Origin: Streptomyces sp. NBC_00663
GTDB lineage: Bacteria; Actinomycetota; Actinomycetes; Streptomycetales; Streptomycetaceae
DNA length: 64,000 nt
Assembly: GCF_036226885.1 (NCBI RefSeq)
Contig: NZ_CP109027.1
Span: forward strand, 6,510,001 to 6,574,000
Reading direction: 5' to 3'
The translations under genes were made by a program, and so were the position numbers. The notes beneath the pieces are model-generated. The model made no database searches. It saw only the letters and a program-made list of their open reading frames with translations, and had not been told where the DNA came from. This document shows, piece by piece, positions 30,083-31,046 of the stretch (positions are counted from its first letter, which is position 1; every line of letters starts with the position of its first letter).

Positions 30083-30109
30083 CCCCCCGGCGTACGGGAC
30101 AATGAACCC

Positions 30110-30175
30110 ATGACCCTGTTCCGCGACGACGGCATCGCGCCGCGCCCTCCCGACATCGGCGGAGGCGTGCGATGA
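30110..30175 (+). CDS. recO upstream reading frame 1 (diverged copy of the recO 5' end)
   Basis: 21 codons, MTLFRDDGIAPRPPDIGGGV then R. The first eight residues copy the start of RecO (MSLFRDDGV). It stops by a TGA that overlaps the ATG of frame 2 (ATGA at 30172), and the ribosome binding site GGAGG of frame 2 lies inside it. This makes it part of a chain of coupled frames leading to recO. Confidence 0.5.
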   Translation: MTLFRDDGIAPRPPDIGGGVR

Positions 30176-30239
30176 GTCTGTTCCGGGATGACGGCGTCGT
30201 CCTGCGCACCCAGAAGCTCGGCGAAGCCGACCGCATCAT
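30161..30239 (+). repeat. 79-bp direct repeat, upstream copy of recO 5' end
   Basis: Identical over 79 bp to 30289-30367, offset 128 bp. It contains GGAGG, the ATG and the first 22 codons of recO. The perfect identity points to a recent tandem duplication. Confidence 0.95.
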
Positions 30240-30303
30240 GCTGTGCTCGCCCGGGGGACAACCCCCGTACCCCCGGCCGGACACTCGTGGAGGCGTGCGA
30301 TGA
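30172..30303 (+). CDS. recO upstream reading frame 2 (truncated recO copy)
   Basis: 43 codons. The first 22 are identical to RecO ([20 protein letters not shown] and RI); then the sequence diverges into a Pro/Gly-rich tail ([19 protein letters not shown]). It ends with TGA overlapping the ATG of recO (ATGA at 30300). Its last part holds the recO ribosome binding site and a GC hairpin with two alternative partners (CCGGGGG with CCCCC at 30262 or CCCCCGG at 30270). It is a pseudogene-like leader that may control recO translation. Confidence 0.6.
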   Translation: MSLFRDDGVVLRTQKLGEADRIMLCSPGGQPPYPRPDTRGGVR

Positions 30304-30367
30304 GTCTGTTCCGGGATGACGGCGTCGTCCTGCGCACCCAGAAGCTCGGCGAAGCCGACCGCATCAT
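30289..30367 (+). repeat. 79-bp direct repeat, downstream copy at recO start
   Basis: This is the second copy of the repeat at 30161-30239; it forms the true recO start. Confidence 0.95.
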
Positions 30368-31046
30368 CACCCTCCTCACCCGTGGCCACGGGCGCGTGCG
30401 GGCCGTCGCGCGGGGAGTGCGGCGGACCAAGTCCAAGTTCGGGGCCCGGCTCGAACCCTTCTCCCATGTCGACGTGCAGTTCTTCGCGCGCGGGAGTGAG
30501 CTGATCGGGCGAGGGCTGCCGCTGTGCACGCAGAGCGAGACCATCGCCGCCTACGGCAGCGGGATCGTCTCCGACTACGCCCGCTACACCGCCGGGACCG
30601 CGATGCTGGAGACCGCCGAGCGGTTCACCGATCACGAGGGCGAGCCCGCCGTACAGCAGTATCTGCTGCTCGTCGGCGCCCTGCGGACGCTGGCCAACGG
30701 GGAGCACGCCCCGCACCTCGTCCTCGACGCCTTCCTGCTGCGCTCCCTCGCCGTCAACGGCTACGCCCCCAGCTTCGGCGACTGCGCCAAGTGCGGCCTT
30801 CCCGGGCCGAACCGGTTCTTCTCGGTCGGCGCCGGCGGCTCCGTCTGCGTGGACTGCCGGGTGCCCGGCAGCGTCGTACCCTCTCCACAGACCCTGGAAC
30901 TCCTCGGCGCGCTGCTTACGGGAGACTGGGGCACCGCCGACGCGTGCGAACCGCGGTACGTGCGGGAGGGCAGCGGACTGGTCTCCGCTTATCTGCACTG
31001 GCATCTGGAACGCGGGCTGCGCTCGCTGCGTTACGTAGAGAAGTAA
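30300..31046 (+). CDS. recO: DNA repair protein RecO
   Basis: 248 residues. The OB-fold N-terminus reads [20 protein letters not shown] and [16 protein letters not shown], typical of actinobacterial RecO. The zinc site is made of two CxxC pairs ([10 protein letters not shown] and CVDCR). RecO helps load RecA onto SSB-coated single-stranded DNA in the RecFOR pathway. The ATG at 30300 has GGAGGCGTGCG before it. Two incomplete copies of its 5' end precede it, chained by ATGA overlaps. uppS follows 23 bp later, and the pair is conserved in Streptomyces. Confidence 0.95.

Follow-up and report, generated by a model that had tools for sequence, protein, structure and literature searches.

Leader frames before recO in Streptomyces as the probable insertion site of a MIRU-like family of short repeats

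In Streptomyces sp. NBC_00663, the recO gene is preceded by two short reading frames that hold partial copies of the gene's own 5' end and are chained to it in phase. Where do such self-derived leaders come from, and what keeps them in frame? We analysed the locus in a window of 64,000 nucleotides (the whole stretch of DNA under study, to which positions refer) and compared it with related genomes. In the reading that we consider probable, the leaders mark an insertion site of E, a family of short repeats of Streptomyces resembling the MIRUs (mycobacterial interspersed repetitive units, reportedly going back to Supply in 1997): E is flanked on either side by a copy of one gene end, T, in the order T1-E-T2-body, the leaders would be translationally coupled to recO, and local copying is favoured as the origin of T2.

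The window contains a perfect direct repeat of 79 nt (30161-30239 = 30289-30367, spacing 128), which our repeat search recovered at the coordinates given in the preliminary description, inside a wider repeat with 95% identity over 91 nt (30149-30239 and 30277-30367). It runs into recO (30300..31046, 248 codons; all features of the locus are on the + strand), whose product was assigned by a profile match (TIGR00613 RecO, E 2e-36). The list of ORFs likewise bears out the chain described there: a leader ORF of 21 codons (30110..30175), a second of 43 codons (30172..30303), and recO, every junction being an ATGA overlap. A -10-like box, GACAAT (30098..30103), stands 6 nt 5' of the first leader ATG, as in a leaderless-type start, and GGAGG motifs at 30161..30165 and 30289..30293 are the likely ribosome binding sites of leader ORF 2 and recO, respectively. 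Leader ORF 2 begins with T1 (30172..30239), which repeats the initial 68 nt of recO, ends in ATCAT, and has homologous counterparts at other recO loci. Next comes a 60-bp copy of E (30240..30299), which runs from GCTG through a hairpin and a C-run to the recO ribosome binding site, and whose core is of a kind common to five further loci of this genome and found genus-wide. T2 (30300..30367), delimited by the direct repeat, is the restored 5' end of recO, and leader ORF 1 is a truncated unit, in which the start of T is joined to the right end of E. In the E hairpin (CGGGGG-ACAA-CCCCCG, 30252..30267, arms 30252-30257/30262-30267), the pair outward of the C-G next to the G-run is mismatched; a second C-run (30270..30274) offers the G-run an alternative partner, in agreement with the earlier account of a GC stem with two possible partners.

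Seventy-nine identical bases, together with the same architecture upstream of recO in other genomes of the genus, mean that the repeat is not due to chance. Perfect identity over 79 bp could also be the mark of an assembly artefact, but leader units stand before recO in other genomes as well, including several genomes listed as a single contig (G207, G151, G193), and we regard an artefact as very unlikely, to the point of being negligible. The ATGA junctions are present as described, although the one at recO is not special in itself: codon 2 of recO begins with A, and TGA is found at the recO start in 50/50 loci read, with or without a leader. The telling feature is a leader frame that stays open as far as this TGA.

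A DNA search with the recO region gave matches in all 295 genomes of the genus, and we read 50 loci, namely the 30 returned (window included) and the next 20 of the ranked list. Many of these carry at least one partial copy of the recO start. At 17 of the 50, the recO ATG itself lies 6-7 nt after a box of the GAGAAT/GACAAT/CAGAAT type and there is no leader; at the other 33, a share that is too high for the genus because the loci were drawn from the top of the ranked match list, the same 6-7 nt separate such a box from the ATG of the first leader, and 1-5 chained ORFs lead from this ATG to recO. There were no exceptions (0/50) to this leaderless-or-chained rule, the box search having accepted CAGAAT too and any distance of 4-9 nt, with 6-7 nt as the outcome. 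The leader ORFs have 16 distinct lengths, from 9 to 51 codons, all of which keep the frame. Upstream of recO, G151 carries five leader units of 128 bp, and G216 two units of 125 bp plus a short first leader; every unit spacing at recO (128, 125, 122, 119, 104, 98, and 152) leaves a remainder of 2 on division by 3, so that the 4-nt overlap is kept. Unconstrained, about one third of length changes would keep the frame, and the lack of exceptions and the 16 in-frame lengths thus point to selection on translation through the leaders into recO. Judging from the frames, the coupling of leader and recO appears to be selected, and the earlier suggestion that recO translation depends on the leaders is very probably right as a prediction, given the unbroken chains of 4-nt overlaps at these 33 loci. 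Direct repeats and arrays would also be expected if slippage had simply duplicated the 5' end of recO in tandem, independently of any element and in phase by chance. We hold this to be highly improbable: 16/16 leader-ORF lengths are in phase, and the linker belongs to a dispersed family with the same T1-E-T2 layout at other genes. A recent duplication that is in phase by luck, as the preliminary description had considered, thus gives way to an arrangement that is widespread in the genus and linked by a repeat element of many other genes.

E consists of GCTG, a GC hairpin, and a second C-run. The exact search pattern, ATGCTG-N4-10-GGGGG-N2-4-ACCCCC-N-G-N-CCCCC, has matches in 35 of the 121 genomes searched within the genus (reversed control, 0). 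Since it contains ATGCTG, the G-run, and both C-runs, decayed copies of E are missed, conservation of the second C-run among the matches is built in, and the pattern bases, including the AT before E, are no evidence of specificity; the recO copy in the window is one base off the pattern and so lies outside the set. With seven sites dropped for short flanks and identical flanks counted once, the set comprises 156 sites, which include one gene in related species repeatedly and are to that extent not independent. A scan of one genome per species found at least 117 stretches with the pattern; among the matches listed, 79 are titled Streptomyces and 1 Actinobacteria bacterium OK074. In a class-wide sample the pattern was present in 7 of 28 genomes of the genus (the window's own included) and in 1 of 268 genomes of other genera, being absent from 267. 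The lone match in another genus (L312, genome G493) adjoins a sequence resembling SRP RNA, followed by a local tandem repeat, and has no visible T duplication. Rfam covariance models, run on five loci with E values up to 1, gave nothing at or above the gathering score over E, the sole overlap below threshold being CC2171 at L048 (22.9 bits vs 75).

The exact E core has three matches in the genome of the window, recO and two at one other locus, and a looser pattern finds 15 places, with 11 stretches inspected for direct repeats. Six loci carry E, recO included, and the other five have direct repeats of 48-93 nt beside the core: a cupin-domain gene junction, where the sequence is present three times with a period of 170; the 3' end of murA; two tRNA-Lys genes, whose copies of E lie at the anticodon loop; and a fifth place, less regularly laid out, where the spacing is 82 bp. 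No such repeat layout was seen in the remaining six of the 11 stretches. The two letters before E are AT at recO and four loci and GT at the sixth, as found with our first patterns, from which ATGCTG was absent. Among other genomes, G063 holds seven exact copies of E including tandem pairs (L073, L092-L094), which makes it a candidate for recent activity, and G292 holds nine. At L209, two E-like cores of differing sequence lie close together, and the next gene resembles the family-2 glycosyltransferase gene of L199.

We find the T1-E-T2 layout, E between two copies of a gene end, at 113 of the 156 sites, with the end of T1 no more than 3 nt from E. The targets are tRNA-Lys (34, with ARAGORN calls at two loci and the rest of the group assigned by sequence), murA (28), proline dehydrogenase (9), recO (8), ectoine hydroxylase (8), an unnamed gene ending in SDLLF... 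(7), and others including der; genus-wide, E has 15 named target loci plus 36 unassigned sites. Of the 113, 71 were read as gene 3' ends (one of them, L212, without a near stop codon). Units measure 72-209 bp, T has a median length of 66 nt (26-148) at the 97 single-unit sites, and unit number over the 156 sites is mostly one (140 sites, with two units at 13, three at 2, and five at 1). The two tRNA-Lys(CTT) genes of the window's genome that hold E in this position, the anticodon loop (L048 and L049; G000 C1:6076614 and C1:6090812), both have their 3' half duplicated together with the terminator.

The murA gene allows occupied and empty sites to be compared. A search of 41 genomes gave matches in 40 and 30 loci; among the 26 gene ends compared, four carry E (that of the window's genome, L250, identified by eye). 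The E-less murA loci, as far as read, have a terminator-like hairpin right after the stop codon, whereas at the E-bearing loci shown the terminator-like sequence comes after T1, so T1 adjoins the native downstream DNA and T2 the native gene body. The comparison speaks for insertion rather than rearrangement, and recO offers a parallel, its promoter-like box preceding T1.

Most E sites are antisense at gene 3' ends or within tRNA-Lys, and this bears on another account of the recO leaders, in which chain and hairpin form a selected regulatory leader that senses translation or the DNA-damage state and sets recO output, unit number tuning dosage. The frame kept in 33 chains with 1-5 units suits such a role. 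So does the hairpin: beside the G-run, 142 of the 156 copies have a C-G pair, 10 a T-A pair, and 4 no pair, so that pairing is retained or compensated in 152; the inner pairs, which the search pattern dictates, are uninformative. The same hairpin at antisense 3' ends and in tRNA-Lys was, however, not made for recO, and 17 of the 50 recO loci do without a leader. Moreover, at L030, L032, and L033 the leader is down to 10-14 codons, with the hairpin lost and the frame intact, which favours ribosome delivery over hairpin-based regulation. We consider a regulatory leader unlikely: a passive role is a simpler reading than one in dosage sensing, and the coupling may be read as ribosome delivery that would make insertion of E nearly harmless.

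The 43 sites without T1-E-T2 include 23 that we read as gene starts, where the E ORF shares 4 nt with the gene (10 sites) or is fused to it in frame (13 sites); scored mechanically, with a frame of at least 90 codons, the same 43 sites divide into 14 with a 4-nt overlap, 15 with an open frame, and 14 with neither. Genes with the 4-nt overlap, whose upstream ORF opens at the ATG of E, encode a family-4 glycosidase (five genomes), an RcpC/CpaB-like protein (two), phosphoglucose isomerase, and two more, and the in-frame fusions include pyrB, hisB, nicotinate phosphoribosyltransferase, adenosine deaminase, and others. The gene for nicotinate phosphoribosyltransferase shows an in-frame fusion in L063, a 10-nt overlap with E in L087, and an E that ends before reaching the gene in L193; because of the latter two exceptions and the 14/43 sites in neither class, the frame rule is not general outside recO. 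At L071, L234 (pyrB), L174 (hisB), and L241 (adenosine deaminase), E apparently provides the N terminus of the enzyme (MLxxPGGxP...), and annotation of start sites there may mislead. The -10-like box was also tried as a general feature just 5' of E at 5' sites; it occurs at 8/27 hand-picked sites and 0/105 controls and is not general.

How old the copies are differs between loci. T1 and T2 of murA have an identity of 0.953 within a genome vs 0.812 between genomes, and T2 of the same site is the best or joint best match of T1 in 27/28 cases; the same holds for 8/9 at proline dehydrogenase and 6/7 at the SDLLF gene, and less often for ectoine hydroxylase (5/8) and recO (2/8). In tRNA-Lys the copies are nearly alike (0.980 within vs 0.981 between), and the comparison is uninformative. 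These identities suggest either that T2 was copied locally or that recombination keeps the T copies alike. At recO, the nearest copy agrees with the gene at 54 to 68 of 68 positions over 17 loci, and at all 68 in four, including the locus in the window. Recency had been deduced from the 79-bp identity; it stands for the perfect identity and fails for the duplication, which is mostly older. The E cores, too, have their nearest neighbour at the same locus in a fraction of 0.57 (permuted mean 0.15, highest 0.27, n=120), so that most sites look like inherited lineages and not like fresh hops.

T2 might also have been imported, if E and T2 together formed a minimal integrative element that carries a gene end, in the manner of phages and integrative elements, and is inserted at an AT core by a site-specific recombinase acting in trans. 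The targets, gene ends and the tRNA anticodon loop, are in line with such a cassette, as is the clustering of E cores by locus. The ends of T add to this: at the 71 sites other than tRNA and recO, the identity of T1 and T2 breaks off no more than 4 nt from the stop codon at 37, earlier at 15, and later at 19 (12 of these 19 being single-unit sites). An exact boundary of T at the stop codon, suggested by 16 sites, was only partly upheld in the 71, and a random staggered break alone does not explain the clustering. An apparent in-frame target, TTC|AT, was discarded as probably due to the codon bias of GC-rich genes and not to translation. Against import speaks the closeness of T2 to its own T1 at murA, proline dehydrogenase, and the SDLLF gene, although this is weaker at ectoine hydroxylase and recO, and gene conversion could also produce it. 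Five sites without a near T2 were followed over ~20 kb, and no direct copy of T1 farther away was convincing; L105 has one inverted match of 82%. One E copy (L105:19655-19692, - strand), within a NagD-like gene, has a large serine recombinase gene directly downstream (L105:18025-19539, - strand), which would suit a cassette; the recombinase has a NagD-like gene of its own after it in G103 and G130, and a scan of the flanks of its close homologues (G130 and G057) found no E. We set the recombinase beside this E copy (L103/L105) aside for the present, as a conceivable mover. Viral contigs contain no exact match to the E pattern, which tells against the cassette and led us to drop a phage origin. 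On balance, an imported cassette seems to us a lesser though real possibility.

Y1 transposases and reverse transcriptases were considered as movers and rejected, neither the Y1 family nor the RVT_1 family having a match in the window's genome. Y1 transposases occur in 17/35 E-bearing and 15/86 other genomes (odds ratio 4.5, p 0.001, uncorrected for kinship), an association that may stem from kinship or genome size; RVT_1 shows no association (17/35 vs 30/86, p 0.22).

Insertion with local copying is the course of events that we favour. In the sequences, E sits close to the end of a gene, and T is repeated across E, which leaves the gene whole as T1-E-T2-body, in tandem units of 1-5. At recO, the leaderless-type ATG of the leader-free gene starts a short leader ORF instead, and E gives a likely ribosome binding site; ribosomes would start at the leaderless ATG, read the leader or leaders, and reinitiate at recO, so that insertion is cheap, while selection for recO output would hold the leaders in frame. 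The MIRU offers a precedent for an inserted repeat that is coupled at -4 nt, according to the available part of PMC12548453. Recombination between T1 and T2 would homogenise the copies, alter the number of units, and could excise E exactly, which in turn could explain its patchy distribution. T2 would stem from local copying at insertion, in which a long staggered break is filled in, rather than from a ready-made gene end brought in from elsewhere. More tentatively, and as a possibility towards which we do not yet lean, E may represent a new mode of DNA insertion, in which a gene-free micro-element of ~40-60 bp has the rest of a gene end (either end, or a tRNA) copied beside it and leaves without trace through recombination of the copies. 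If so, a micro-element can live inside the essential genes murA, der, and tRNA-Lys. The repeat family would thus occupy essential genes unbroken, by gene-end duplication and translational coupling; the leader arrays of recO form a natural series for termination-reinitiation after a leaderless start, and E sites supply variable tandem loci for Streptomyces typing and raise the question of what makes the gene-end copy.

Integrative elements target tRNA anticodon loops or conserved gene ends and restore the tRNA or the 3' end of the gene. E targets the same kinds of sites, with the gene end restored, but its unit is gene-free and only 72-209 bp long, and one E is common to many different targets. 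With REP/REPIN/RAYT systems, E shares a short palindrome, a conserved tetranucleotide on one side, and the lack of a transposase of its own; as far as the available part of the source goes, REP elements have a GTAG or CGTC tag beside the palindrome (PMC3733652), whereas E begins with GCTG, and it also differs by the gene-end duplication and by the absence of a Y1 transposase match from the window's genome. Translationally coupled leader ORFs, in the portion of PMC12548453 at hand, likewise consist of a short upstream ORF that brings ribosomes to a coupled gene, but the recO leaders hold fragments of recO itself, by way of the repeat. Among the titles and abstract openings listed from an open-access library, none described this Streptomyces element, and in the accessible part of PMC4210621 the match to the searched term was the species name mirum.

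The closest known kind appears to be the MIRU, by described features rather than by sequence homology. To our knowledge, MIRUs insert only at start codons or coupled junctions (the DTGA rule), a restriction that E does not share, with 34 tRNA-Lys sites and 71 gene 3' ends among its 113; E also belongs to another genus and has a GC hairpin and a GCTG end. In the sections available, MIRUs are described as apparently mobile and inserting at start codons with an inner ORF coupled at -4 nt, which likely limits harm (PMC12548453), and as repeats of 40-100 bp that occupy 41 places of a single genome (PMC2734929). Measured against these partial texts, E is similarly short and dispersed over many loci (six in the window's genome), varies in tandem copy number (140/13/2/1 of 156 sites), shows the 4-nt ORF overlap in the recO chains and at 10 other 5' sites, and presumably costs little to insert, as a MIRU does. 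What sets E apart is the piece of host gene, mostly ~30-120 nt, that is doubled at its sites, which the parts at hand of PMC12548453 and PMC2734929 do not mention for MIRUs; as far as these parts go, the long gene-end duplications and the E sites within tRNA genes or antisense at gene 3' ends look new.
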